A stretch of DNA of 39,253 bases from an uncultured Clostridia bacterium (GTDB lineage: Bacteria > Bacillota > Clostridia > Christensenellales > Aristaeellaceae): positions 1-39,253 of the forward strand of contig CAMNEH010000013.1 of the NCBI GenBank assembly GCA_946536315.1. The letters run 5' to 3'. The notes under the pieces were generated by a model. The model saw only the letters and a list, made by a program, of their open reading frames with translations, made no database searches and was not told where the DNA came from. Positions within the stretch are counted from its first letter, which is position 1. Each line of letters begins with the position of its first letter. The position numbers and the translations under genes were made by a program. Below, piece by piece: positions 4,256 through 39,083 of the stretch.

Positions 4256-5392
4256 ATGAAGAAACTGCTTTGCCTGGCCCTCGCGCTGATGATGGCGTTC
4301 GCCTGTGTCTCCGCGCTGGCTGACGACTCCGACCTGCAGAAGGCCTACGATGAGGAAATGCACCTGGCCCGCTATATCGTCAACCGCGGCCCCGCCTGGG
4401 AATACAACGGGCTGATGGATTATGAGCATTACTGGTTCCAGGTCGCCTGGGCGCAGGACAAGAAATCCAACAAGGTCGAGGACATGGAAAACGCCCAGGA
4501 GATCGTCGACACCCTGAAGGCGAAGCGCGAGGCGCTGGTCCAGGTCATCGATGATCCCGAAAGCGTCGTCTGGGAAATCTGGGGCGAGAACATGCCGCAG
4601 GCAGCCAACGCGTCCGAATATGTCTATGAGCAGACCTTCGATGAAGCCGGCTTTAAGCCCTTCCTGGTCCCCTATATGCTGGAGGATCAGTCCGCGGTCA
4701 AGGGCAACGCGATCGTGATCGCGGGCGGCGGCTTCAACCAGCGCTGCCATGACTATGAAAGCTATCCCGTCGCGCTGGACCTGAACCGGCTGGGCTACAA
4801 CGCCTTCATTCTCCAGCGCCGCGTAGCGCCTTCCGAAACCATCGACTGCTCCCTGGACCTGCAGCGCGCTGTCCGCTGGCTGAAGGCCAACGCGGAAGCG
4901 AAGGGCATCGGCGCGATCGACAAGCTCTGGACCATCGGCTTCTCCGGCGGCGGCATGACCATCATGAACCAGCTGAATACCTGCTATGGCGATATTACGC
5001 CTGACGCTGTGTACCCGGACTATGTCTGCGATGAGATCGACAGCATCAATTCTGATTACGCTGTGGCGGCGATCTTCTACGGCGTGGTGACGCCCTATGA
5101 TTCCGAAAACCCCAACATGCCCAAGTTCTACGTCTGCGGCGGCTCCATCGACAATAAGGTACCCCCGAAGAACTACCTGGAGTTCTACCAGACCGCGCTG
5201 GATAAGGGCTGGGCTGCCGAGCTGTACATCGCCTACAACGTGCACCACGGCTTCGCCACCAACGGCGTGCGCGCGTTCTCCGATGTCGGCTACACCAGCG
5301 CGCTCCAGAACATCGTCCTGCTCGAAAACTTCCTGGACATCGAGTTCGGCTACAAGGCCGCGACCTTCGATTCCGAATGGCATTATAAGTAA
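4256..5392 (+). CDS. Secreted alpha/beta hydrolase (GFSGGG type), paralogue B
   Basis: This 378-residue protein has ATG 4256 behind AAAGGAGG and a signal peptide nearly identical to paralogue A (ending ALA|DD). The shared order is LQKAYDEEMHLARYI at the mature N-terminus, AIVIAGGGF, LGYNAFILQRRVAP, GFSGGG with nucleophile Ser230, Asp299 (GGSIDNK) as likely acid and His331 (VHHGFA). It is about ten residues shorter than A in the N-terminal helical region. The upstream sequence (gaa(g/t)...aaaaggagg) also resembles that of A, consistent with tandem duplication. Codon use matches the GC-rich neighbourhood. A strong intrinsic terminator follows, so the hydrolase group probably ends here. Exact substrate unknown. 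Confidence 0.84.
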   Translation: MKKLLCLALALMMAFACVSALADDSDLQKAYDEEMHLARYIVNRGPAWEYNGLMDYEHYWFQVAWAQDKKSNKVEDMENAQEIVDTLKAKREALVQVIDDPESVVWEIWGENMPQAANASEYVYEQTFDEAGFKPFLVPYMLEDQSAVKGNAIVIAGGGFNQRCHDYESYPVALDLNRLGYNAFILQRRVAPSETIDCSLDLQRAVRWLKANAEAKGIGAIDKLWTIGFSGGGMTIMNQLNTCYGDITPDAVYPDYVCDEIDSINSDYAVAAIFYGVVTPYDSENPNMPKFYVCGGSIDNKVPPKNYLEFYQTALDKGWAAELYIAYNVHHGFATNGVRAFSDVGYTSALQNIVLLENFLDIEFGYKAATFDSEWHYK

Positions 5393-23722: not shown

Positions 23723-26700
23723 TTATTCGTCCAGCATCGTGGTCAGCGCGCGCGCCTCGTTATAGGTCAGGCCGGCGCAGAGGATCGGGTTGTCGGGGTA
23801 AATGGCCTGCCAGAGCGTGGCGTCGCTGTTCAGCAGCGCGCGGGCAGCGGCCAGGCAGTTGGACAGGACGGGCTTCACATCGCCGTCCGCGGCGACGGTC
23901 CTGGCGTTGATCAGCGCAGTCATGGCATTGCTCCAGCCCAGGCGGCCGACGGCCAGGATGGTGCTCAGGTCGTCCGCGCTGCTTTCCTGATGGCTGCGCA
24001 CGAAGCGCTCGATGGTTGAATGGTTTGCGCACAGCGTTTCCCGCAGGGTCAGGCGCCCGTCGGCTTCCCTGCTCAGCAGCCAGCCGCAGTCAGCGGCGGC
24101 GGGCGCTTCGGACGCGAGGACTTCGGCGCCCTCGGCCCCTGACAGGCGGTGCAGCGCCTCGCACAGGTCCACACAGCGCACCTCGATCAGATCGGTCAGG
24201 CGCTGCAGGCGGGTGGCCTTGTCCATGGCAGCGTCATTTTCCAGCATGGCCTGCCACGCAGACAGGTAGCGCTCGAACGCGCGCTGGCTGTCCATGACGG
24301 TAGCGCCCTGCCCGGGCAGCGCGGCGGCCAGGGCGCGGTACAGGGCGCTGGCTTCACGCTGCCACAGCGCCATCACCTGCCGGGCGGCGGAAATCCGGTC
24401 CTCTCCGGTCGCAGCGGCGTCCAGGATCGCCTGTGCCTTGCTGTCGACGGTCAGATGGTCCGCGCACAGGGTCAGCGCGTAGGTCGTCTGCGTGTCGTCC
24501 TGATAGGTCTGGATCCGGCGGCAGCTGTCGTCCCCGGCGTAGCTGTCCAGGTGCTTTTTGCCGTCGCCGACCAGGCTGACGACCGGGCCGAAGCCGACGC
24601 TGCCCAGATAGCCGTTGGCGTTATAGTAGTCGGCGTAGGCGTAATTCTCGACCGTGCCGTTGATCACGTCCGGCATGGCCACCGTATAGCTGAATGGAAC
24701 GGTATACGGCACGCCCGGAAGCAGCGCGGGAATGATGGCGATGACGCCGCCGCTGTCCGTCGCCAGCGAATCGATGACCTCCACATACAGCGGTTCGTGG
24801 AAGAGGTTGGTGACGGTGATGTCGTAGGTGATGGTCTCGTTGAAGCGGTACATGCCGGTGTCGCTGGCGGGCGTACTGGTCTCGGTCTTCTCGATGCTGA
24901 CCATCGGCTCGCCGTCGGGGAAGCCGGTCGGCACCTCGACCGTATTGCTGATCGCGGTGATCATCTCGCCGCCCGCCGAGCCTGCGGCATTGGCGCTGTT
25001 CAGGATGGCGGCGGATGCGTCGGGTTCCGTCACGGTGTAGGCGAACGAGAGCGTATCCGTGAAATGCGGCGGCATGGTGTCATAAGCGCCGAGCTCGCAG
25101 CCGGTCTCCTCGTTCCAGAACAGCGGGTCTGTCACTGACACTCCGGTCAGCGTCGCGCCGCTGGGGTTGGATACCGTTACGTGGAAGGTGACGACCTCGC
25201 CCGGCGTGAAGTACGCGCCGTTCGCGGGATTGAAATCAAAGGATTTGACGAGGCTGAGACCGGGCGGCGCGTACAGCGGCGCGGCCACGATGTTGGAATA
25301 GGTTTCGCTTTCATCCTGCTCGCCGGGCTCGCGGTAGCGGACTGACGCCTGGTTGTACAGCGTCTGGAAGCTGGCGATGTCCTCCGCGGTCACCGTGTAT
25401 CCAAAGTTGAAAACCCACTCCTCGTCCGGCGCCAGCGCGGCCTTTGTCGCCAGCTTGGAGGCTTCTTCTGTTTTAAACACCGGATCGATCAGCGTGAGAT
25501 CGGTCAGCGTCTGACCGGAGACGTTTTTGACCGTCAGCTGGTAGTGGATCATTTCGCTTTCCTGGTAGCCCGCCGGGTTGTCCGGGCCGCCGACACGGGC
25601 TTTGAAGAGGTCGACCGGATCGAGCAGCGGCAGGGAGGTCAGGTCGGCGGAGAGGTGCGCCTTGTTGGACTCGCAGGGTTTGTCCTCGCTGCCATCGGTC
25701 ACGACGACGCCGTGCGCGACGACCGTACGCTCGACGGCGCCGGCGGCCAGGTCGTCTGCGATGACGGTGGTCTTCTGCGTCACGGTGATCGGCGGGTCGC
25801 CGGGCTCCAGTGTCGTAAAGATGTACGGGGCCCATTCGCTCAGGTTGTCCGCCGCGAGCGGATCGGTGCTGCGGCCGGGATAGTCCTCCACGACCACGTC
25901 TGTGAGCTGCACGGCCACGCTGCCGGTATTGGTGAGGGTCATCGCGGCGGAAATCTCATCGCCGATGCCCGCGCCGGGGGCCGGCGCGGTGACGCAGGTC
26001 AGCGTCAGCTCCGCGTGGCGCTTTTCGCCTTCCAGCGCATAATTGATCTTCAGCACATTGGTGTACAGGTAGTGGTTTTCCTCCGCCTCATCGACCCAGT
26101 AATAGCCCATGCTGAAGCTGCGCTCGACGTTGCCGTCGCCGATATCGAGCGGAGAAACAATGATGCGGTAATCGAATCCGCCCTCCTGGTCCGGATCGAG
26201 CCCGCTTATGAACTCGCCGCCCCAGCTGTACTGGTCGTAGAATACCTTGTCATTTGGCCAGGGAGAGAACGCGTAGGGTTTGACCCACACATTGCCCTCG
26301 TTATGGGCGGTGATGCGCAGGTCGATCACGCTGCCCAGTACCAGGTCGCCGTCCGGTCCGCCGGTGTAGGACAGCGTCAGCAGCGGATTGACTTCGCTGC
26401 CGGCCTTGGCGGCGTCCAGGGTCAGCGGGTAGGGCTCGGCCCAGACCTCCTTATGGTTCGGCAGATCCCAGCCCACTGCGTCAAAGCTCAGCTCGATCTG
26501 GCCGACGTCGGCCTCCTCCGGGAGCACCGTGTACGTGCAGTCGCGGGAATATGGCTCGCCCGGCGCGAGAGACACGCTGCTAACAGGCATGCCGTAGGCG
26601 TCGTACAGGGTCACATCGTCCAGCGCGACGCTGCTGTGGTTGACAGCGGTCAGGTGAATGGTGATGATATCGTCCGCGTAATACGGCTCGGACGAGCCGT

Positions 26701-27991
26701 CCACGATGACCGCGGACAGGGACAGTTTATAGGTGTTCTTGTTCGCGCTGAGCGGCACGGCGCACTCCGCGGTGTCCGCGGCCGGCGTGCCAAAGCCGTC
26801 TTCATACTGCGCCGACACGTCCTCGAAGAATACGCCGCCATGCGACGCGGCAAAGTTCACATGCGCCTCGGTGACCTGATAGCTGTAATGCAGCGTTTCC
26901 TGCTGGTGCGGGGCCAGCGTTTCGGGCCAGCCCTCCACGACCGGGTGGGACGCGTAGCTGAAGGTCAGCGCTTCGTCTGATTCGTTGGTCAGCGTCAGCG
27001 CAAAGGCGATATAATCATTCAGCGCATACGTCTGCGGCTCCATCAGAGCCGCGCTGAGAGAAATGACGGGCAAGGGCTCTTCCGCCACTTCCTCAGGTTC
27101 GACCGTGGGCTCTGCGTCGGGTTTGACCGCTGCCGGCTCCACACCGCCCGGCGGGAGGGACGACGGTTCGCCCTGCAGCGGCACGTCCACGTCCGCGATA
27201 TCGGAGAATGGGCGCTCCAGGGGAGTGCCCCATCCGGCGATCGCGGCATAGGCCGCGCTGTACCGTACGCGGGCGCGCATGTCATTCTGCGCGGCCTGGT
27301 CGATCATGGCCTGGGTCACAGTGAGGGTGGATGGAAGCGTGCGGCTCTCGCCCGGCTTCAGTGAAAGCGGGTACAGGGTATCCAGGCTCGGGGACGCCTC
27401 CTTGAAAAGCAGCTCCTCGCTGCCTGCGTTCAGAACGGTCACCAGAATGCTGAACTGCTCGCCGAGACTGAACGGCCCGTCGCCCTCCAGCGCCGCCGTC
27501 AGGACCAGGCCGTCCTGCCCGGGCTGCGTGGCCGGCAGGCTGGCGGCGGAACCTTCGTCTTCTGTCGCGCCGCAGACCGCGCACGTGCGCCGGCGCAGGC
27601 CGTCGCGGACGGTGACCCACTCGCCCCACTGGTGCGGGGCCAGCTCGCCGGCGTACTGCCACTCGTATCCGCCGCCGCACACCGTGCAGCGATGCTCCTC
27701 CTTCGCGCGCTCGACGCAGCTCGCTTCGGATATACGCACCCATGGCCCATACCGATGACCGAGCGCGGGAATGGTTTCCTGCTGAACGACGCCCTGAACG
27801 TTGCGCCGCTGGCGCAGACCCGGCTGGGTGCAGGTCGGCTCGCGGACGGTGACCCAGTCGCCCCAAAGGGCCTCCTGGTCGATCAGGGAAGGCTGCGGCG
27901 TGACCGGCGCGGTCGCCGCCAGGGCTGCCTGCGCCAGCGCGAGCATCAGCGCCAGTGCCAGCAGCGCGCTGCAGAAACGGGAGAACTTCAT
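23723..27991 (-). CDS. Large exported surface protein with Cys-containing repeats, eight DUF11-like beta domains and a helical C-terminal domain
   Basis: A 1422-residue protein from ATG 27991 after AAGGAGG, with a signal peptide ending near ALA|AT. Residues about 40-145 hold three W..W units with Cys pairs (WGDWVTVREPTCTQPG; CVERAKEEHRCTVCG; WGEWVTVRD...CAVCG). Residues about 155-1140 hold eight related beta-sandwich repeats, each with a ...Y.....I.....LTN.(S/G)... core (FALTLTNESDEAL, ITAHNEGNVWV, MTLTNTGSVAV, LTVKNVSGQTL, VTVSNPSGATL, ITVTNLFHEPL), like DUF11/CARDB-type adhesin stalks. The last ~260 residues (1160-1422) are helical, with LCADHLTVDSKAQ and LCANHSTIERFVR as two similar segments and a LprI-like ...SQRAFERYLSAW stretch. 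No LPXTG or SLH anchor is present. An adhesin or stalk role is likely. Confidence 0.82.
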   Translation of the reverse strand: MKFSRFCSALLALALMLALAQAALAATAPVTPQPSLIDQEALWGDWVTVREPTCTQPGLRQRRNVQGVVQQETIPALGHRYGPWVRISEASCVERAKEEHRCTVCGGGYEWQYAGELAPHQWGEWVTVRDGLRRRTCAVCGATEDEGSAASLPATQPGQDGLVLTAALEGDGPFSLGEQFSILVTVLNAGSEELLFKEASPSLDTLYPLSLKPGESRTLPSTLTVTQAMIDQAAQNDMRARVRYSAAYAAIAGWGTPLERPFSDIADVDVPLQGEPSSLPPGGVEPAAVKPDAEPTVEPEEVAEEPLPVISLSAALMEPQTYALNDYIAFALTLTNESDEALTFSYASHPVVEGWPETLAPHQQETLHYSYQVTEAHVNFAASHGGVFFEDVSAQYEDGFGTPAADTAECAVPLSANKNTYKLSLSAVIVDGSSEPYYADDIITIHLTAVNHSSVALDDVTLYDAYGMPVSSVSLAPGEPYSRDCTYTVLPEEADVGQIELSFDAVGWDLPNHKEVWAEPYPLTLDAAKAGSEVNPLLTLSYTGGPDGDLVLGSVIDLRITAHNEGNVWVKPYAFSPWPNDKVFYDQYSWGGEFISGLDPDQEGGFDYRIIVSPLDIGDGNVERSFSMGYYWVDEAEENHYLYTNVLKINYALEGEKRHAELTLTCVTAPAPGAGIGDEISAAMTLTNTGSVAVQLTDVVVEDYPGRSTDPLAADNLSEWAPYIFTTLEPGDPPITVTQKTTVIADDLAAGAVERTVVAHGVVVTDGSEDKPCESNKAHLSADLTSLPLLDPVDLFKARVGGPDNPAGYQESEMIHYQLTVKNVSGQTLTDLTLIDPVFKTEEASKLATKAALAPDEEWVFNFGYTVTAEDIASFQTLYNQASVRYREPGEQDESETYSNIVAAPLYAPPGLSLVKSFDFNPANGAYFTPGEVVTFHVTVSNPSGATLTGVSVTDPLFWNEETGCELGAYDTMPPHFTDTLSFAYTVTEPDASAAILNSANAAGSAGGEMITAISNTVEVPTGFPDGEPMVSIEKTETSTPASDTGMYRFNETITYDITVTNLFHEPLYVEVIDSLATDSGGVIAIIPALLPGVPYTVPFSYTVAMPDVINGTVENYAYADYYNANGYLGSVGFGPVVSLVGDGKKHLDSYAGDDSCRRIQTYQDDTQTTYALTLCADHLTVDSKAQAILDAAATGEDRISAARQVMALWQREASALYRALAAALPGQGATVMDSQRAFERYLSAWQAMLENDAAMDKATRLQRLTDLIEVRCVDLCEALHRLSGAEGAEVLASEAPAAADCGWLLSREADGRLTLRETLCANHSTIERFVRSHQESSADDLSTILAVGRLGWSNAMTALINARTVAADGDVKPVLSNCLAAARALLNSDATLWQAIYPDNPILCAGLTYNEARALTTMLDE

Positions 27992-29302: not shown

Positions 29303-29944
29303 TTAAATGCCCTGAGCGGCCTGCGCGCAGTATTCCTCCAGCGTCCATCCCTGCTCGCGGATGATGCGCGCGGCGGCCTCGCCGACATAGCGGTAATGCC
29401 AGGGCTCGTAATCGATGCCGGTGACGGCTTCCTTGCCCTTGGGATAACGGAGGATGAAGCCATACTCCCAGCAGTGCGCCGACAGCCAGGTAAACTGCGG
29501 CGTATCCTCAAACGTACCATGGTCGTAGCGTGCGGTTACGTCAAAGGCGAGGCCGGTCTCGTGTTCGCTGCAGCCTGGCAGCTGGGCGGTATTGCCTTCG
29601 GCCTGCGCGTACAGCTCGGCCTGCCGTTCCCGGCTGCGGTAGCCGCTGGTCACGATGAAGCCGTTCATGTCTTCGTTCTCGGCCTGCAGAAACATCCGGT
29701 TCGCCGCCTCGAAGGTCTCGCGCTCCAGCTGTATGCCGCTGGAGGCGAGCAGGAAGTGCCGTTTCTGCTCATACAGGTTCACCAGCTCGCCGGGGGTAAA
29801 ATCCTCCGGCAGCGGATGAGCGGCGTTCACCAGCAGCACCGCCGGACCGCTCACCGGCGCGGCGGGCGTGCCTGCGCGCGGGGCCAGCAGGACGGCGGCC
29901 GACAGCGCCAGGATCAGGACGAGCGCGAACAGCGCTTTTTTCAT
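29303..29944 (-). CDS. VanY-type D-alanyl-D-alanine carboxypeptidase
   Basis: A 213-residue exported or membrane-anchored enzyme from ATG 29944 after GGGAGGGAG. One N-terminal hydrophobic segment (3-22) is followed by the zinc peptidase domain: VTSGYRSRERQAELYA (98-113) with the substrate-binding Arg103, SEHETGLAFD (126-135) giving zinc ligands His128 and Asp135, and YEPWHYRYVG (179-188) with catalytic Glu180 and zinc ligand His183. This is the full VanY/LAS motif set, so it should trim terminal D-Ala from peptidoglycan precursors or muropeptides. No vanHAX or two-component genes are nearby, so wall housekeeping is more likely than glycopeptide resistance. Confidence 0.93.
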   Translation of the reverse strand: MKKALFALVLILALSAAVLLAPRAGTPAAPVSGPAVLLVNAAHPLPEDFTPGELVNLYEQKRHFLLASSGIQLERETFEAANRMFLQAENEDMNGFIVTSGYRSRERQAELYAQAEGNTAQLPGCSEHETGLAFDVTARYDHGTFEDTPQFTWLSAHCWEYGFILRYPKGKEAVTGIDYEPWHYRYVGEAAARIIREQGWTLEEYCAQAAQGI

Positions 29945-30153: not shown

Positions 30154-31308
30154 ATGGATTGGCTGGATTTATTCTATTTTCTGCTGGGCGCGCTGCTGTG
30201 CTGGGGCGCGAAGGGCTGCCGCAGGGGACAATGGAACAGTGACTGTACGTCGCTCGGGCAGACGAAGACGCTGGAGGGCGCGGCGGCGCTGGGCGTGGCG
30301 CTGCATCACATCGCACAGAAGACCTGCGGCAGCTGGCACCCCAGGCAGTACATCGTTCACGGACTGGATGTGTTTGTGGACATGGGGTATATCCTGGTGG
30401 CAGTGTTCTTCTTCTGCAGCGGGCTGGGGCTGTACAAAAGCGTACGGACCAAGCCGGACTACCTGAAGGGGTTTTTCAGGCGGCGGATGCTGCCCCTGGT
30501 CATCGCGTTCTACCTGTCGGAGTGGCTTCACCTGGGGGTGCGCGCGCTGATGGGCGAGCGGATGACGGCGGCGGATGTGCTGTGGTATCTGTCAGGGCTG
30601 AGGCTGGCCAACATGAACGCGTGGTATATGGTCGCGCTGCCGCTGTTCTACCTGTTCTTCTGGCTGGCTTTCCGCTTCTGCCGCCGGGAGGGCGCGGCCA
30701 TCGGCTGGGTATTTCTGGGCGTGCTCGCGTATACGGTCGGCTGCGCCTTTGTGGACCATCAGGACGTCTGGTGGGTGCGTGGAGAGTGGTGGTATAACAG
30801 CGTGATCCTCTTTCCCATCGGGCTGCTGTTCGGCCGGCATGAGGAAGCGCTCCTGCGGCGGTTCAGGCGCGGGTACCCTGTCTGGCTGGGACTCAGCCTG
30901 GTGGGCGTGTTCGCGGCGCTGCGGCTCGCCGGCGCGGCGGTCGGACGCTGGGGGTACTACGGCGAAAACTGGGGCGATCCAATGAAGGTGCTCCACCGCC
31001 TGGGCAGCGCCGGCGCGCAGTGGCTGGTCTGCGCCGCGGTGGTCCTCGCCTGCGTACTGGTGATGATGAAGTGCCGGTTTGGCAACCGCGCGCTGACCTG
31101 GCTGGGCAAAATGTCGCTGGATTTCTACCTGGCGCACGGCATTTTTGTGGAGCTGTTCGGTTTCAGCTTCCTGGACCGTGCCAAGCCGCTGTACTATATC
31201 CGCAGCGTGCCGCTCTTCCTGCTGACCGTGCTCGCGTGCGGGGCGGTATCGGCAATGCTGTTCCGACGTTTGCGGATGGCGGTGACACGCCTCGCGGGTC
31301 ACGTATGA
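30154..31308 (+). CDS. Acyltransferase-3 (OafA/YrhL-like) integral membrane protein
   Basis: A 384-residue protein from ATG 30154 after AAAGGATT. It has about ten membrane segments. The entry motif KTLEGAAALGVALHHIAQ (38-55) corresponds to the R/K...A..V...H motif of acyltransferase family 3, with candidate catalytic His51/His52. FFFCSGLGLYKSV then F(F)RRRMLPLVIAFY follow in the usual order, and LTWLGKMSLDFYLAHG near the end matches the family's G..S..iYl.H motif. Members O-acetylate or otherwise acylate wall polymers, capsular sugars or exopolysaccharides. The acceptor is unknown here. No SGNH partner domain is fused. Confidence 0.87.
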   Translation: MDWLDLFYFLLGALLCWGAKGCRRGQWNSDCTSLGQTKTLEGAAALGVALHHIAQKTCGSWHPRQYIVHGLDVFVDMGYILVAVFFFCSGLGLYKSVRTKPDYLKGFFRRRMLPLVIAFYLSEWLHLGVRALMGERMTAADVLWYLSGLRLANMNAWYMVALPLFYLFFWLAFRFCRREGAAIGWVFLGVLAYTVGCAFVDHQDVWWVRGEWWYNSVILFPIGLLFGRHEEALLRRFRRGYPVWLGLSLVGVFAALRLAGAAVGRWGYYGENWGDPMKVLHRLGSAGAQWLVCAAVVLACVLVMMKCRFGNRALTWLGKMSLDFYLAHGIFVELFGFSFLDRAKPLYYIRSVPLFLLTVLACGAVSAMLFRRLRMAVTRLAGHV

Positions 31309-31326
31309 GTGAGGATCACGTCCATC

Positions 31327-31356
31327 TTGACAGCCGGGCCGGTTTTCTGGTATAAG
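31327..31356 (+). promoter_or_regulatory. Promoter of the ParB-like/BMP operon
   Basis: Consensus TTGACA (31327-31332), 18 bp, TATAAG (31351-31356), giving a leader of about 85 nt before ATG 31447. Confidence 0.75.
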
Positions 31357-31446
31357 GCTATCGGAAACCCGGGCCACAGCGCCCGGACTTCCGGACAGGG
31401 CGGCGGGGCCGCCTGAGCAAAGCCAACCACAGAAAGGAATTGACGC

Positions 31447-33402
31447 ATGTCTCGCAGTGACGCTATTCAGCAGTATAAAGTGGCCCTCAGAGCAGGGCAG
31501 AAGTATTTCAACGCGCAGGAGGCGCAGCACAAATCTCCCTATCTGGCCGTACTGGACGAGCTGACCAACGATACCCTGTTCTCCGGCCAGCAGGCCCTGG
31601 GGGTCATCGAAATCCCGCTCTCCCTGGTCGTGGGGACGTTTTCGGCAGGACGGAAGACAGCCTTCGCGGGCAACTATATGCCCATCCTGCCGGAAAACTC
31701 CGAATTTGCCGGGAAGTGGGTGAGCCTGTGCGACGCCCATCTTTCGGAGGGCGGCATCCGCGACGCGATCAAATGTATGGAATTCCTGGGCCGGTTCTAC
31801 GTCATCGAGGGGCACAAGCGCGTGTCGGTGCTCAAAAGCTTCGGCGCGCCGAGCATCATGGCCGAGGTGACGCGCATGGTGCCCGTGTGGACCGATACCC
31901 CCGAAATCAAGGCGTATTATGAGTTTATGCGCTTTTATAAGCAGACCGGCATGTACGATATCCAGTTTACCGAACCGGGCTCTTACGCGCGGCTGCTCGA
32001 CCGGCTGGGGTACGCTGAGGACCATGTCTGGACGCATGACGAGCGCGCGAACCTCCTGTCGATCTATATGAAGTTCTCCCGCGTGGTGACGCCGCGCATG
32101 CTGGTCCGCATGCCCGGCCGCCAGGTCTGCGACGTCATGCTGGAGTGCATGGAGGTCTATTCGCCGGACGAGCTTATCAAGGCGGACGACGCCCGGCTGC
32201 AGAAGCTGGTCATGCCGCTCATGCGCGACTTTGAGGTCAATCCGGACGAAGCGGCGGACACACACATTTCCATGCGGCCGGAAGTGCAGGACAAGGGCCT
32301 CGTTCGCCAGCTGCTGGAGGATCTGTCGCGGCCGGACGCGCTCAAAATCGCCTTCATTTACTCCGCGCCGCCGGAGTCGAGCGAGTGGACCGCGGCGCAC
32401 GACGAAGGCCGGCGCCGGATGGAGGAGGCCTTCGAAAACCAGGTGCTGGTCCGCACCTATATCGCTACGCGGGAGACGGCCGATGCCGTGATGGAAACGG
32501 CCGTGGCGGACGGCGCGCAGGTCATTTTTGTGACCGCTCCGCTGCTGATGGGCTCCGCGCGGCGCATCGCCGCGATGCACCCGGGCCTCAAGGTGCTGGT
32601 GTGCGCGCTGTCCGTGCCGTATACGGGCATCAGGACCTATTACGCACGGGTATACGAGGCGAAATTTGTGCTCGGCGCGATCGCTGGAACGCTCTGCGGC
32701 GGCGAGCCGATCGGCTGCGTCGCGCAGTATCCGATCCTGGGCGTGCCGGCGGCGATCAACGCGTTCGCGCTCGGCGCGCGCATGACCTGCCCGGACGCGC
32801 GCGTGCTGCTGGAGTGGTCCTGCATGCCCGGCAATCCCTATGAAAAGCTGATGAAGGCCGGCGCGAGGCTGATCACCGGACAGCCGGGTACGCTGCCCTC
32901 GCTCAAGGACGGCGCGGGCCTGTTCGAAGCGTGCGGAGGCGGGCTGCATTCGCTCGCCAGGGAGGTCTGGAACTGGGGACGGATGTATCAGAAGATCGTG
33001 CGCAGCATTCTGGACGGCGGCTGGGAGCAGGAGGATAACGCGCCCTCGGTCAATTACTGGTGGGGCATGAACGGCGGCGTGATCAACGTCCGGCTCTCGG
33101 AGCAGCTGACGCCCGGCGCCTCTCAGCTGGCGGATATCCTGCGCAGCGGCATGGTGAACGGCAGCATCCAGCCCTTCCTGTGCGAGATGAAGGATCAGCG
33201 CGGTACAATGCGCCTGGACGGCGAGCGCTGGCTGACGCCGATCGAGATCATGCAGATGAACTGGCTGAGCGAATATGTGACCGGCATCCTGCCCAAGCCG
33301 GACGAGGTGCTCGAAATGTCGCGGGAGACCACGCGTCTCCTGGCGCTGCCGGAGGAGCCGGCGGAGCCCAAGGGCCAGCAGGAGCCCTCGCAGGAGGAAT
33401 GA
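31447..33402 (+). CDS. Cytosolic fusion of a ParB/sulfiredoxin-like domain and a BMP (PnrA-like nucleoside-binding) domain
   Basis: A 651-residue protein from ATG 31447 after AGAAAGGAA. It has no signal peptide, lipobox or membrane segment. Residues about 52-150 resemble a ParB/Srx domain: GVIEIPLSLVVGTF, then YVIEGHKRVSVLKSFGAP with the GHxR-like Gly122-His123-Lys124-Arg125, followed by IMAEVTRMVP. A helical linker (150-290) leads to a BMP/PnrA-type periplasmic-binding fold (about 294-610: LKIAFIYSAPPES, DGAQVIFVTAPLLMG, YYARVYEAKFVLGAIAGTL, IGCVAQYPILGVPAAINAFALGA). BMP proteins normally bind purine nucleosides outside the cell for ABC import; here the domain must work inside. A Pro/Glu/Gln-rich tail ends the protein. 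Role unknown; an intracellular nucleoside sensor is my inference. Confidence 0.78.
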   Translation: MSRSDAIQQYKVALRAGQKYFNAQEAQHKSPYLAVLDELTNDTLFSGQQALGVIEIPLSLVVGTFSAGRKTAFAGNYMPILPENSEFAGKWVSLCDAHLSEGGIRDAIKCMEFLGRFYVIEGHKRVSVLKSFGAPSIMAEVTRMVPVWTDTPEIKAYYEFMRFYKQTGMYDIQFTEPGSYARLLDRLGYAEDHVWTHDERANLLSIYMKFSRVVTPRMLVRMPGRQVCDVMLECMEVYSPDELIKADDARLQKLVMPLMRDFEVNPDEAADTHISMRPEVQDKGLVRQLLEDLSRPDALKIAFIYSAPPESSEWTAAHDEGRRRMEEAFENQVLVRTYIATRETADAVMETAVADGAQVIFVTAPLLMGSARRIAAMHPGLKVLVCALSVPYTGIRTYYARVYEAKFVLGAIAGTLCGGEPIGCVAQYPILGVPAAINAFALGARMTCPDARVLLEWSCMPGNPYEKLMKAGARLITGQPGTLPSLKDGAGLFEACGGGLHSLAREVWNWGRMYQKIVRSILDGGWEQEDNAPSVNYWWGMNGGVINVRLSEQLTPGASQLADILRSGMVNGSIQPFLCEMKDQRGTMRLDGERWLTPIEIMQMNWLSEYVTGILPKPDEVLEMSRETTRLLALPEEPAEPKGQQEPSQEE

Positions 33403-33406
33403 GCGC

Positions 33407-33997
33407 ATGAAGATACTGGCGGTGTCGGATGTCGAATGCCCCGCGCTGTGGGAATACTACCGCCCCGAACGGATGGAAGGGGTGGATGTGATCGTTTCCT
33501 GCGGCGACCTTCGGCGGGAATATCTGGAGTTTCTGGTCACGATGACCAACAAGCCCGTCCTGTATGTGCCGGGCAACCATGACAAAGGATATGTCAAAAA
33601 TCCGCCGGAGGGGTGCGACTGCATCGACGGCATCGTTTACCAGTATCGTGGGGTGCGTTTTCTCGGGCTGGGCGGGTGCAAGTTCTATAACGACCCCGTC
33701 TACCAGTATACTGAAAAACAGATGGAACGCCGCGTCCGCCAGCTGCGCCGCGCCCTGAAAAAGAGCGGCGGCGTGGACGTGGTGGTGACACACGCCGCCC
33801 CTGCCGGGTGCGGCGACCGCCAGGACCCAGCGCATCAGGGCTTCGTCTGTTTTCTGGACCTGATGCGGCGGTACAGGCCGCGCTACTTCCTGCACGGGCA
33901 CGTGCACATGAACTATGACCGGGACATCCCGCGGCAGATGACCTACGAGCAAACGGAAATCATCAACGCGTACGAGCGTTACACCGTCGAGCTGTAG
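33407..33997 (+). CDS. Calcineurin-like metallophosphoesterase
   Basis: A 196-residue cytosolic protein from ATG 33407; the AGGAGG site lies inside the end of the preceding gene, 4 bp away, so the two are cotranslated. Motifs in order are SDVE (7-10), CGDL (32-35), GNHD (56-59), VVTHAAP (about 126-132) and LHGHVH (about 163-168). The first motif usually reads D-x-H; here it is Asp8-Val-Glu10, so Glu replaces a metal-binding His, which also occurs in some small Clostridia phosphoesterases. The rest of the two-metal centre is intact, so a phosphodiesterase or phosphatase activity is plausible. The substrate is unknown; a nucleotide would suit the neighbouring BMP fusion. Confidence 0.86.
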   Translation: MKILAVSDVECPALWEYYRPERMEGVDVIVSCGDLRREYLEFLVTMTNKPVLYVPGNHDKGYVKNPPEGCDCIDGIVYQYRGVRFLGLGGCKFYNDPVYQYTEKQMERRVRQLRRALKKSGGVDVVVTHAAPAGCGDRQDPAHQGFVCFLDLMRRYRPRYFLHGHVHMNYDRDIPRQMTYEQTEIINAYERYTVEL

Positions 33998-34014: not shown

Positions 34015-35838
34015 ATGCCTGGACCCGGATCGCGCGGCCCGATGGGGCGCGGCTATCTGACCGAGGAAGAAAAGCGCAACGCGCCAAAGGTGACCGCGGC
34101 GCTGCTCAGGCGCGTGCTGTCTTACCTGCGGCCCTACTGGCGCCAGCTGGCGCTGGTGCTGGGATGCATCGTCGTCTCGTCCGTGTGCAGCGTGTTCCCC
34201 TCGGTGCTGACCGGACGGATCATCGACGAGGGCCTGATCGGCCGAAACATGGGCGCGCTGGTCCGGCTGATCCTGATTTCCCTGGCGCTCAACCTGGGCG
34301 CCAATCTGATCGGCGTGGGCGAAAGCTACCTGAACAGCTGGATCGCGCAGCACATCTCCTACGATATGCGCAACCAGATGTACGCCCATTTGCAGAAAAT
34401 GTCCCAGCGCTTCTTTACGTCCGCCAACCAGGGCGACATCATCACGCGCATGACCAGCGATATCTCCGGCGTGGAAACCGTCGTATCCAACACCTTTGCC
34501 AGCATCCTGTCCAATGTGATCACTTTGGCGGTCGCGCTGATCGCGATGTTCAGGAAAAACTGGCTGCTGGCGCTGATCGGCATGGTGGTGGTGCCGCTGT
34601 TTACGCTGCCGACGCGCATGGCCGGTAAAAGGCGCTGGAAGCTCGCGGGCGAGGCGCAGGCGTGCAACGACGAAATCAACGGCATCCTGAACGAAACGCT
34701 GTCGGTGAGCGGACAGCTGCTGGTCAAGCTGTTCGGCAGGGAAAAGCAGGAGTACGAACGCTACCGCGACGCCAACGGCCGCATGATCCGCCTGAACATC
34801 CGGGAGCGCATGGCGGGACGCTGGTTTTTTATGCTGCTGAGCACGCTGACGACCATCGGCCCGATGCTGCTCTATCTGGTGGGCGGCTTGCTGATCATGC
34901 GCTATGACAGCGCGCTCACCGTCGGCGATATCACCGTGCTGGTGACGCTGCTGGGCCGGATGTACGGGCCGGTCAACAGCCTGCTCAATATTCAGGTGGA
35001 CTGGATCCGTTCCATGGCCATGTTCACGCGCATCTTTGATTATTATGACATGCCGGTCGAAATTGACGACCGCCCCGGCGCGCGGACGCTGACCGACGCA
35101 AAGGGTGAGGTGCGCTTCGAGCACGTCGGCTTCTCCTATGACGGCGAGCATCCGATCCTGCGCGATATCAGCTTCGAGCTCAGAAGCGGGGACTGCGTCG
35201 CCATCGTCGGGCCGAGCGGCAGCGGCAAGAGTACCATCGTCAACCTGATCCCGAGACTGTGGGACGTTTCGTCCGGCCGCGTCTTCTTTGACGGGCAGGA
35301 CGTACGCGACCTGACGCTGTCGTCGCTGCGCGCGGAAATCGGCGTGGTGACGCAGGAGACCTACCTGTTCAACGGCAGCATCCGGGATAATTTGCTTTAC
35401 GCGCGGCCGGACGCGACGGAAGAGGATATGTTGAACGCGTGCCGGCAGGCCAATATCCTGGATTTCATTCAGCGCCAGCCCGAGGGACTGGACACCATGG
35501 TCGGCAATCGCGGGCTGAAGCTGTCCGGCGGCGAGAAGCAGCGCATCTCCATCGCCCGCGCTCTGCTCAAGGATCCCGCGCTGCTGATTTTTGACGAAGC
35601 CACCTCCGCGCTGGATTCGATTTCGGAGGCCGCCATCCAGAAAGCCATCAATCCGCTGATCGAGCAGCGCACGTCCATCCTGATCGCGCACCGGCTGTCC
35701 ACCATCCTCGCCGCGGATGAAATCCTGGTGGTCCGCGACGGACACATCGTCGAGCGCGGCACGCACAAGCAACTGGTCAACGCCGGCGGCACCTATCAGG
35801 AATTGTACGAAACGCAGTTCAGCAAGGCGCTGGCGTGA
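34015..35838 (+). CDS. ABC exporter half-transporter (permease fused to ATPase)
   Basis: A 607-residue protein from ATG 34015 after ACAGGAGG, 17 bp behind the phosphoesterase. An N-terminal membrane domain with six segments (about 35-335) is fused to an ATPase domain. The ATPase has Walker A GPSGSGKST (399-407), Q-loop VVTQETYLFNGS, signature LSGGEKQR (503-510), Walker B LLIFDE (523-528) followed by ATSALD, and H-loop His559 in AHRLST. The arrangement is that of MsbA/LmrA/YknU-type exporters for lipids, drugs or peptides. It may work as a homodimer, since no second half-transporter is adjacent. Cargo unknown. Confidence 0.93.
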   Translation: MPGPGSRGPMGRGYLTEEEKRNAPKVTAALLRRVLSYLRPYWRQLALVLGCIVVSSVCSVFPSVLTGRIIDEGLIGRNMGALVRLILISLALNLGANLIGVGESYLNSWIAQHISYDMRNQMYAHLQKMSQRFFTSANQGDIITRMTSDISGVETVVSNTFASILSNVITLAVALIAMFRKNWLLALIGMVVVPLFTLPTRMAGKRRWKLAGEAQACNDEINGILNETLSVSGQLLVKLFGREKQEYERYRDANGRMIRLNIRERMAGRWFFMLLSTLTTIGPMLLYLVGGLLIMRYDSALTVGDITVLVTLLGRMYGPVNSLLNIQVDWIRSMAMFTRIFDYYDMPVEIDDRPGARTLTDAKGEVRFEHVGFSYDGEHPILRDISFELRSGDCVAIVGPSGSGKSTIVNLIPRLWDVSSGRVFFDGQDVRDLTLSSLRAEIGVVTQETYLFNGSIRDNLLYARPDATEEDMLNACRQANILDFIQRQPEGLDTMVGNRGLKLSGGEKQRISIARALLKDPALLIFDEATSALDSISEAAIQKAINPLIEQRTSILIAHRLSTILAADEILVVRDGHIVERGTHKQLVNAGGTYQELYETQFSKALA

Positions 35839-36186: not shown

Positions 36187-36271
36187 GTTCCCTGCCTTCC
36201 GTGTCACGGCCGTCATGGAGGGCAGACCTTATCCGGTATCGATGACGATCAACGAAAGGATGGTAAATCAG

Positions 36272-37297
36272 ATGAAAAAAATCATGGCGGTTCTCCTGGC
36301 GGCGATGCTCCTGATGTCCGTTGGCGCAGTGTCCCTCGCGGAAGAAGCGAAGACCTTCAAAATCGGCATCTGCAACTTTGTGGACGACGCGTCCCTGAAC
36401 CAGATCATCGCGAATATCCGCGACAGGCTCGGCGAAATCGAGCAGGAACGCGGCGTGAAGATCGAAATCATGGAAGACAACTGCAACCTGGACGGCAGTG
36501 TGCTGGAACAGATCATCGCCAATTTCATCGCCAGCGACGTTCAGCTGATGGTCGCCGTGGCGACGCCGGTCGCCATCGCCATGCAGGCGAAAACGGAGGA
36601 CAGCGCGCTGCCGGTCGTGTTTGCCGCTGTATCCGATCCGGTCGGCGCCGGCCTGGTGGAAAGCATGGAAGCGCCCGGCGCGAACCTGACCGGGACCTCG
36701 GACTACCTGGATACCAACGCCGTGTTCAACCTGCTGTTCGCCCTGAACCCGGACGCGTCCAAGGTCGCCCTGCTGTACAACCCGTCCGAGGACGCCTCCA
36801 CGGCCCCGATCGAGGCGGCCAAGGCGATCCTGGCCGACAAGGGCGTGAGCTATAAGGAGTACAGCGGCGCGAACGTGTCCGAGGTAGTCCTGGCCGCGGA
36901 CGCGATCGTCGCGGACGGCATGGACGCCGTGTTTACGCCGACCGACAATACGATCATGGCGTCGGAGCTGTCGATTTACGAGACCTTCGCCGAGGCGGGC
37001 ATCCCGCATTACACCGGCGCGGATTCCTTCGCGCTGAACGGCGCATTCCTGGGCTACGGCGTGGACTATGCCAACCTCGGCCGGGAAACGGGCGATATGG
37101 TGGCGGCGATCCTGCTGGACGGCGCCGATCCGGCGGCGACCCCTGTCAAGACCTTCGACAACGGTACCGCGACCGTGAATACGGAAATCTGCGCCGCGCT
37201 CGGGCTGGAATACGACGCGGTGGCGGAGCTGTTTGCCCCGTACTGCATCAAGGTGCAGCCGATCGCTACGGCGGAAAGCTTTGAAGACGTCAAATAA
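36272..37297 (+). CDS. trpX: Tryptophan ABC importer, substrate-binding protein
   Basis: A 341-residue exported protein; ATG 36272 is chosen because GAAAGGATGG precedes it and a signal peptide starts there (MKKIMAVLLAAMLLMSVGAVSLA|EE). The mature protein follows the ABC substrate-binding family PF04392: FKIGICNFVDDASLNQII, AVATPVAIAMQ, LPVVFAAVSDPVGAGLV, GANLTGTSDYLD, KVALLYNPSEDAS and a Y.G.D.FA.NGA end. There is no lipobox; it may stay near the membrane by other means. The Trp specifier of the upstream T-box gives the substrate, matching TrpX of the TrpXYZ systems. First gene of the operon. Confidence 0.92.
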   Translation: MKKIMAVLLAAMLLMSVGAVSLAEEAKTFKIGICNFVDDASLNQIIANIRDRLGEIEQERGVKIEIMEDNCNLDGSVLEQIIANFIASDVQLMVAVATPVAIAMQAKTEDSALPVVFAAVSDPVGAGLVESMEAPGANLTGTSDYLDTNAVFNLLFALNPDASKVALLYNPSEDASTAPIEAAKAILADKGVSYKEYSGANVSEVVLAADAIVADGMDAVFTPTDNTIMASELSIYETFAEAGIPHYTGADSFALNGAFLGYGVDYANLGRETGDMVAAILLDGADPAATPVKTFDNGTATVNTEICAALGLEYDAVAELFAPYCIKVQPIATAESFEDVK

Positions 37298-37315
37298 TGA
37301 ATGAAAAACCGGCGG

Positions 37316-37343
37316 AGCCCGGGCGGCGCATGCCGTCCGGGCT
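37316..37343 (+). other. 12-bp stem-loop between trpX and trpY
   Basis: AGCCCGGGCGGC-GCAT-GCCGTCCGGGCT (37316-37343), with one G-U pair. It has no U-tract and lies just upstream of the trpY ribosome site, so it could protect the binding-protein mRNA segment and set unequal expression. Confidence 0.65.
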
Positions 37344-37363
37344 ACCCGGCTGATGAGGGAACA

Positions 37364-38305
37364 ATGAGTCTGGATAAGATTGTGGTCCTGGGCCAGACCG
37401 CGCTGGAGCTCGGCCTGGTCAACGCGCTGACAGTGCTGGCGCTGTTTTTGAGCTATTCCATGCTGGACGTGTGCGACCTGTCGACCGACGGCTGCTTCAC
37501 GCTGGGGTCCGCGGTCGGGGCGCTGGTGGCCATCGCGGGCTATCCGTGGCTGAGCCTGCCCGCGGCCATGCTCGCCGGCGCACTGTCCGGCCTGCTGACG
37601 GCGACGCTGCAGACGCGCATGGGCGTGCAGAGCCTGCTGGCCGGCATCGTGGTCAATACCGGGCTGTACTCGGTCAACATGGCGCTGACCGGCAACAAGC
37701 CGACACTGAACATGAACAAGACGCCGACCGTGTTCGTCTTCGCGAAGGATTTCCTGAAGGGCACGCCGTTCAGCGGGCAGCATGTGCTGTTCGTCCTGCT
37801 GATCGCGGTGGCGCTGGCGGTGGTCTTTTTGTGGCGCTTCCTGCGCACCAAGCTGGGGCTGGCCATCCGCGCCACCGGCAGCAACGCGGATATGGTGCGG
37901 TCCTCCTCGATCAACCCGACCTTCACCACGACGGTGGGCCTGTGCGTATCCAATATGCTGACGGCGCTGTCAGGCTGCCTGATGGCGCAGCAGCAGAAGG
38001 GATATGACGTCAACAAGGGCTCCGGCATGGTGACGGTGGCGCTGGCCTCGCTGCTGATCGGCGGCGTCATTTTCGGCAAGCACCGGAGCATCCCGCTGCG
38101 TCTGATCGGCGCGGTGCTCGGCGCGTTCATTTTCCGGCTGGTGTACACGCTCGCGCTGCGCTTCAACATGCCGGCGTTCATGCTGAAGGCGGTCTCCTCG
38201 CTGATCGTGATCCTTGCGCTGTCCGGCTCATATTTCAAAGGACAATTGCCCTATATCATGAAACGCCTGAAAGGCAGGGGAGGGTCCGGCCGTGCTGAAG
38301 CTTGA
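37364..38305 (+). CDS. trpY: Tryptophan ABC importer, permease
   Basis: A 313-residue membrane protein. ATG 37364 is chosen because GAGGGA precedes it and the mature permease begins there; the longer frame from 37301 would run through the intergenic stem-loop. About eight membrane segments have the branched-chain permease pattern of PF02653: SYSMLDVCDLSTDGCFTLGSAVGA near the N-terminus, GVQSLLAGIVVNTGLYSVN, LGLAIRATGSNADMVRSSSIN (the EAA-like cytoplasmic loop), and GSGMVTVALASLLIGG. It would form the Trp channel together with the ATPase below, whose start overlaps its end. Confidence 0.92.
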   Translation: MSLDKIVVLGQTALELGLVNALTVLALFLSYSMLDVCDLSTDGCFTLGSAVGALVAIAGYPWLSLPAAMLAGALSGLLTATLQTRMGVQSLLAGIVVNTGLYSVNMALTGNKPTLNMNKTPTVFVFAKDFLKGTPFSGQHVLFVLLIAVALAVVFLWRFLRTKLGLAIRATGSNADMVRSSSINPTFTTTVGLCVSNMLTALSGCLMAQQQKGYDVNKGSGMVTVALASLLIGGVIFGKHRSIPLRLIGAVLGAFIFRLVYTLALRFNMPAFMLKAVSSLIVILALSGSYFKGQLPYIMKRLKGRGGSGRAEA

Positions 38306-39083
38306 ACAGGTCAGTAAAACCTTTTATCCCGGGACGCCCAACGCGCGGCTCGCGCTGGACCGGCTGAACCTGCACATCCTGCCGGGGGATTTTGTCAGCA
38401 TCATCGGCGCGAACGGCGCGGGCAAATCCACGCTGTTCAACGCGATCTGCGGAAGCTTTTACCTGGACGAGGGCTGGGTGGTGCTGGACAACAGGGACGT
38501 GACCATGCTGCCCGAGTATAAGCGCGCGCGGCAGATCGGCCGCCTGTTTCAGGACCCCATGCGCGGCACCGCGCCGGATATGAGCATTGAGGAAAACCTC
38601 GCCCTGGCTGCCGGGCTGGGGGGCTGGATGTCCCATGTCACCAGCGCGGACCGCAGGAGCTTCCGGGACCGCCTCGCCCTGCTGAATATGGGCCTGGAGG
38701 ACCGCATGTCGCAGCCGGTGGGCCTGCTGTCCGGCGGACAGCGCCAGGCGCTGACGCTGCTGATGGCCACCTACCAGACGCCGAAGCTGCTGCTGCTGGA
38801 CGAGCATACCGCCGCGCTGGACCCCGGGACCGCGGAAAAGGTGCTCGCTCTGACGGAAACGATCGTCCGGGAACACCAGCTGACCTGCCTGATGATCACG
38901 CATAACATGCAGTCCGCGCTGGACCTGGGCAACCGGACGCTGATGATGGACCAGGGCCGGGTGATTTACGACGTGCGGGGCGAGGAGCGCGCCAGGCTGA
39001 CGGTGCATGACCTGACCGAAAAATTCCACGAAAAATCCGGGCGCGAGCTGAACAACGACCGGATGCTGCTCGGCGTGTCCTGA
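38292..39083 (+). CDS. trpZ: Tryptophan ABC importer, ATP-binding protein
   Basis: A 263-residue ATPase from GTG 38292 after GGGGAGGG, overlapping trpY by 14 bp. It has Walker A GANGAGKST (about 39-47), Q-loop LFQDPMRG, signature LSGGQRQ, Walker B LLLLDEHTAALDP and the H-loop ITHNMQSAL. The DEHTAALDP form is typical of the ATPases that pair with PF04392 binding proteins. An alternative start one codon later is not better. It ends the T-box-controlled operon. Confidence 0.92.
   Translation: MLKLEQVSKTFYPGTPNARLALDRLNLHILPGDFVSIIGANGAGKSTLFNAICGSFYLDEGWVVLDNRDVTMLPEYKRARQIGRLFQDPMRGTAPDMSIEENLALAAGLGGWMSHVTSADRRSFRDRLALLNMGLEDRMSQPVGLLSGGQRQALTLLMATYQTPKLLLLDEHTAALDPGTAEKVLALTETIVREHQLTCLMITHNMQSALDLGNRTLMMDQGRVIYDVRGEERARLTVHDLTEKFHEKSGRELNNDRMLLGVS

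Follow-up and report, generated by a model that had tools for sequence, protein, structure and literature searches.

A gene for a 651-aa protein, predicted to fuse a ParB/Srx-like domain, a helical domain and a BMP domain, was found almost only together with, and beside, a gene encoding one subfamily of calcineurin-like metallophosphoesterases, and this phosphoesterase is the real partner of the fusion gene. The pair lies in the window, i.e., the whole stretch of 39,253 nt that was analysed from an uncultured bacterium of the class Clostridia, with the following features:

31447..33402, plus strand: fusion protein of ParB/Srx-like, helical and BMP parts, 651 aa (codon-position GC, Pfam, Foldseek)
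31579..31887, plus strand: predicted ParB/Srx-like domain, residues about 45–147 (AF2 model of residues 1–295; Foldseek, VIA)
31702..31770, plus strand: counterpart of the C motif of ParB, helix 86–99 followed by the loop GIRDA (alignment of 34 sequences)
31810..31821, plus strand: P motif GxxR, residues 122–125, GHKR (aligned to sulfiredoxin GCHR)
31900..32232, plus strand: helical domain, residues about 150–262 (profile–profile match, Pfam in relatives)
32332..33294, plus strand: BMP domain of the AtzT/3s99 type, residues 296–616, with purine-contact residues substituted (Pfam, VIA, alignment)
33407..33997, plus strand: calcineurin-like metallophosphoesterase, 196 aa (Pfam PF00149, 8e-11; alignment)
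34015..35838, plus strand: ABC exporter, outside the conserved module (Pfam, neighbourhood comparison)

The GC content by codon position (0.63/0.43/0.85) marks the frame of the fusion gene as coding, and over half of the family genomes sampled encode full-length homologues with 32–72% identity; therefore, the 651-aa open reading frame is real. An antisense frame of 938 aa (30592–33408, minus strand) was rejected as an artefact of the third-position GC content, the longest antisense overlap ranging from 69 to 692 codons across loci, and a 2238-aa fusion at one locus (L078) turned out to be a spurious open frame upstream of an internal true start. The 651-aa protein matched no family in an NCBIfam search, and Pfam matched no domain in its N-terminal half and a BMP domain (PF02608) at residues 299–457, its score of 34.8 bits lying above the cut-off of 24.1. 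The full-length structure model, based on an alignment only ten sequences deep, reached a mean pLDDT of 69.

The phosphoesterase gene begins at the fifth base after the stop codon of the fusion gene. We used 100 genomes of the family and 196 of the class, 295 different genomes altogether. The fusion occurred in 72 of them, the phosphoesterase in 70 and both in 69. In 66 of these 69 genomes the two genes are adjacent, and in the other three they lie on separate contigs. The phosphoesterase is located downstream in 47 adjacent pairs, upstream in 10 and convergent in 9, most gaps are shorter than 120 bases, and a 4-base overlap occurs in several pairs. For this co-occurrence, the Fisher p of 1.5e-62 ignores shared ancestry and reads only as “strong”. 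At least two changes of gene arrangement are needed on the tree, and the linkage survives them, which argues against mere descent of a shared operon. The original prediction had placed the fusion gene in one operon with a phosphoesterase and an ABC exporter; the survey of homologues bore out the former link, which is our strongest result, and not the latter.

Around 44 fusion loci, no gene family recurs comparably to the phosphoesterase; gene clustering of these neighbourhoods missed a few adjacent phosphoesterases, which were recovered by profile searches. parA is not a recurrent neighbour among them. Apart from the window, only its nearest relatives have the ABC exporter beside the fusion gene, and the exporter was thus ruled out as a component of the system. 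Elsewhere in the window, positions 36218–39083 (plus strand) encode a TrpX-like ABC transporter with its ATPase, permease and substrate-binding protein (NCBIfam TrpX, 202 bits, below the cut-off of 390). On the minus strand, a 1422-aa open reading frame (23723–27991) has, by eye, a signal-like N terminus and repeated domains, and another (29303–29944) resembles a VanY-type D,D-carboxypeptidase by eye (GYRSRERQ, GLAFDV).

The metal-ligand residues D8, D34, N57, H129, H165 and H167 are kept in the window phosphoesterase. Within the motifs GD, GNHD/E, H and GHxH, residues D34, N57, H58, H129, H165 and H167 were found in all 39 aligned sequences and D59 in 37 of them. The His of the DxH motif, in turn, is replaced throughout (Glu in 31, including the window, Pro in 4, Ala in 4). 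The nearest solved relatives in profile searches were Dbr1 and MPPED2 (E about 5e-5), with matches that are local only.

For the N-terminal half, an AF2 model of residues 1–295 was obtained (mean pLDDT 78, pTM 0.70). Its best Foldseek match was Noc (7ol9_B, E 6.8e-6), followed by ParB, KorB and sulfiredoxin. VIA gave Z values of 7.9 for Noc over 80 residues, 7.3 for ParB, 7.1 for plant sulfiredoxin, about 6.1 for SerK and 5.9 for SbnI (the latter two spanning 5.9–6.3), values that unrelated folds may also reach, Z below 8 not being decisive alone. The superpositions on ParB/Srx-type structures mostly cover residues 51–147. The assignment rests on three findings taken together: the first 28 VIA matches are all of the ParB/Srx/SerK/SbnI type, residues 122–125 form a GxxR motif, and a profile search of the PDB independently returned plant sulfiredoxin as best match at the same place (E 0.04). 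Thus, the GHKR-bearing ParB/Srx-like domain of the original prediction is confirmed by the models as a core fold at about residues 48–158, with a best Z that is moderate and weak support from sequence: the curated cut-off of PF02195 was not reached, and only 3 of 34 members were touched by this family at all (best E 0.008). A match of the N-domain profile to a Shiga toxin subunit (E 2.4) is due to chance.

Residues G122, K124 and R125 of the P motif are invariant among 34 sequences, and so are E86, F87, K90 and W91 in helix 86–99 of the region equivalent to the C motif, here defined according to the main text of a survey of the ParB-CTPase fold (PMC12704722); the loop that follows has the family consensus GIRDP, compared to GIRDA in the window. 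In the profile alignment with sulfiredoxin, which like SerK and SbnI has a ParB/Srx fold that binds ATP or ADP, K90 falls on a Lys and R125 on the Arg of GCHR, whereas the catalytic Cys of GCHR is Asn or His in the fusion family.

Comparing profiles, the window N-terminal half matched standalone ParB-like proteins over 198 columns that end near residue 235 (E 1e-18, probability 99.1); the ParB-like and helical parts are therefore common to the fusion and the standalone proteins. VIA matches of residues 194–262 to Stl and exosome structures (Z 4–5) are not meaningful. A protein with an N-terminal DNA-binding ParB-like part and a C-terminal ligand domain of the periplasmic-binding type might act as a transcription regulator similar to LacI or Med, the activator of comK. 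Foldseek alignments to Noc, ParB and KorB indeed span 223–263 columns of the N-terminal half, and Med as well as LacI-type regulators are among the matches of the BMP domain. However, the superposition on ParB is limited to residues about 51–147, helices 150–262 were not superposed on the helix-turn-helix part of ParB by VIA (Foldseek rmsd 15–20 Å), and the conserved neighbour is an enzyme rather than a regulated transporter or pathway. We regard a regulator of this kind as distinctly improbable.

The BMP fold claimed for the C-terminal half is well supported, although its designation as PnrA-type is loose. Searching solved structures with phmmer, the best matches were AtzT (9.9e-32) and the Brucella BMP protein 3s99 (2.9e-24), both from residue 297 on. 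The full-length model matched AtzT with a Foldseek E of 2.0e-17 and a VIA Z of 27.2 over 302 residues and 3s99 with a Z of 27.1, compared to 19–21 for the nucleoside binders Lbp, BmpD and PnrA. Hence, judged by the model, the domain comes closest to AtzT and 3s99, two periplasmic binders of purine bases, and not to PnrA.

In AtzT, guanine is contacted by Asn218, Asn220, Glu165, Ser97 and the backbone N of Phe98, and stacked by Tyr45 and Trp194 (PMC6834077). All 12 standalone clostridial BMP lipoproteins examined have Trp/Tyr, Ser, Phe/Tyr, Glu, Trp, His and Asp at the sites of Tyr45, Ser97, Phe98, Glu165, Trp194, Asn218 and Asn220, whereas these sites read W, A, P, G, P, Q and P in the window protein, or W-A-P-K-G-A-P-Q-P when nine AtzT positions are considered. 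The Tyr45 stacking site is retained as Trp314, which is invariant in all 44 fused proteins; among these, 40 have Pro at the Phe98 site, 35 have Gly at the Glu165 site, and 5 retain Trp194. When the tree is rooted with the standalone BMP proteins, the fused family forms one clade. Near-basal members (L093–L097) keep most of the purine pocket, with Glu/Asp, Trp, His/Gln and Asp/Asn at pocket sites, and a derived clade of 35 rows that includes the window (SH-aLRT 99) has Gly at the Glu165 site. We read this pattern as a putatively purine-type ancestor whose pocket changed later in the window's clade. As the AtzT-type purine contacts are replaced there, a nucleoside ligand for the window protein is not supported, nor is the nucleoside sensor that the original prediction had proposed. 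The alternative given there, an enzyme that uses nucleotides, may still apply.

With most purine contacts gone, the BMP domain of the window could also be purely structural. It would then be a vestigial scaffold, for instance for dimerisation, that binds nothing, leaving the ParB-helical part and the phosphoesterase as the parts that matter. The composition of the pocket is compatible with this, and so is the presence of the core without BMP in other lineages (see below). On the other hand, W314, H318, Y398, R401, E404, N438 and W457 are near-invariant, and the derived clade in turn conserves Gly432 and Pro365, which suggests that the pocket was changed rather than abandoned, and we consider the scaffold unlikely.

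No export signal or lipobox was found in the window protein or its 44 fused homologues on the basis of hydropathy in the first 60 residues. The highest mean Kyte–Doolittle value over 17 residues in this region was 1.46 among the 44 homologues, compared to 1.99–3.05 in the 12 standalone lipoproteins, ten of which have a lipobox. A signal lost in the window by misannotation would be expected to show in homologues, and none of the 44 has one; an intracellular protein, as originally proposed, therefore stands: the fusion protein is likely cytosolic. This bears on the name that RefSeq gives to a homologue from Collinsella aerofaciens, “BMP family ABC transporter substrate-binding protein” (WP_320677882.1). 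Taken literally, the name would make the fusion an ordinary part of a BMP-type nucleoside ABC transporter whose export signal had been overlooked. Apart from the name, this could appeal to a BMP domain above the Pfam cut-off. Yet a hydrophobic signal distinguishes the standalone lipoproteins from all 44 homologues, the N-terminal part is of the ParB type, no BMP-type permease or ATPase gene recurs in the 44 neighbourhoods, and the purine contacts are lost, making a transporter part very hard to credit.

The N-terminal profile also matches proteins of about 320–365 aa (E about 1e-16), plus shorter ones, in other families of the phylum. Some of these proteins carry 4Fe-4S domains and Pfam DUF4032, the latter matched by two of them; no paper on DUF4032 was found in the open-access literature. 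At six of nine loci fetched (L123–L128), the ParB-helical protein directly adjoins the same phosphoesterase family; so does a shorter ParB-like protein at another locus (L131), and a ParB-type protein lies beside the phosphoesterase at two further loci (L163 and L160). At L123–L128 and L163, the ParB-helical protein ends in a 4Fe-4S or Cys-rich domain and the phosphoesterase gene comes first. Across a sample of 398 genomes of the phylum, the ParB-type domain occurred in 24, the phosphoesterase in 25 and both in 22, and the two are adjacent by coordinates in 19 of the 22. A weaker ParB-like partner adjoins the phosphoesterase in G561, no adjacent partner was recognised in G295, G587, G608, G310 and G673, and two genomes (G574 and G626) have the ParB-type domain and lack the phosphoesterase. 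At positions 5192–5842 of contig G179:C20 (locus L129), a genome without the fusion encodes a more remote member of the phosphoesterase family (E 4.7e-52), with no recognised partner beside it. By comparison of these sequences, the core looks like a ParB-fold protein plus phosphoesterase, with an exchangeable C-terminal sensor.

Our preferred, though tentative, interpretation, to which we give somewhat less than an even chance, is that the fusion forms the sensing half of a conserved, cytosolic module of two genes, in which a ligand-gated nucleotide switch controls the phosphoesterase. The ParB-fold domain would bind an NTP via the GxxR motif, and the BMP domain would close on a small cytosolic ligand, ancestrally perhaps a purine base and now something else in the window's clade. 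Binding of this ligand may alter the NTP state, which in turn would switch the partner phosphoesterase by direct contact, and the latter would hydrolyse a nucleotide or phosphodiester. The C-terminal domain could thus serve as exchangeable input for a metabolite or redox signal, the ParB fold as switch and the phosphoesterase as output. A broader version is more doubtful, though still conceivable: a previously undescribed signalling module in which an NTP-gated ParB-fold switch, with interchangeable solute-binding or 4Fe-4S sensors at the C terminus, would control a dedicated phosphoesterase whose metal site is atypical and whose substrate may be a nucleotide messenger.

The main rivals of the switch model are the scaffold-only BMP domain and an enzyme pair. 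In such a pair, the ParB/Srx-like domain would be a nucleotide-dependent transferase or kinase, as SerK and SbnI are, acting on a compound bound in the BMP domain, and its product would be removed or processed by the phosphoesterase. The presence of SerK and SbnI among the structural matches and an obligate partner that is a phosphoesterase are consistent with this. However, the 4Fe-4S version in other lineages suits a sensor better than a substrate-holding domain, and no counterpart of the catalytic Glu of SerK and SbnI was located in the fusion protein by the comparisons at fold level; an enzyme pair appears rather improbable.

With regard to known systems, the kind of fold is familiar; the fusion, the partner that almost always accompanies it and the swapping of C-terminal domains appear undescribed. 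As far as the main text of the 2025 survey goes (PMC12704722), ParB-CTPase fold proteins with fused domains likewise combine a ParB/Srx fold, a GxxR P motif, a C-motif-like helix plus loop and an extra domain; many orphan members also resemble the fusion in lacking a recognisable Box III. The search in that survey applied the curated threshold of PF02195, which the fusion family misses, and its main text reports many fusions and mentions neither BMP nor phosphoesterase (PMC12704722). PnrA, BmpD and Lbp share the BMP superfamily fold, and unlike the fusion they are exported and have no ParB-like domain. Med (2hqb, Z 18.8) represents a BMP-type fold in a regulatory protein of Bacillus, and its solved chain again has no ParB-like domain. 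In the open-access literature, no paper on the fusion together with the phosphoesterase was found. With C-terminal domains that are exchanged while the core stays constant, the module lends itself directly to testing how nucleotide switches of the ParB type couple to other outputs, a question left open in the main text of the survey (PMC12704722).

The pair is widespread in Clostridia of gut and rumen, and its misleading name hides a role that is likely cytosolic. A Subdoligranulum variabile record carries the pair, and so does the Collinsella aerofaciens record (Actinomycetota), in which WP_320677882.1 and WP_320677883.1, the latter named “metallophosphoesterase”, overlap by 4 bases. This Collinsella record of 900 kb (NZ_OY725717.1, locus L166) is labelled plasmid 6; it contains rplA, rplK, nusG, secE and tuf, and probably belongs to the chromosome despite its label.
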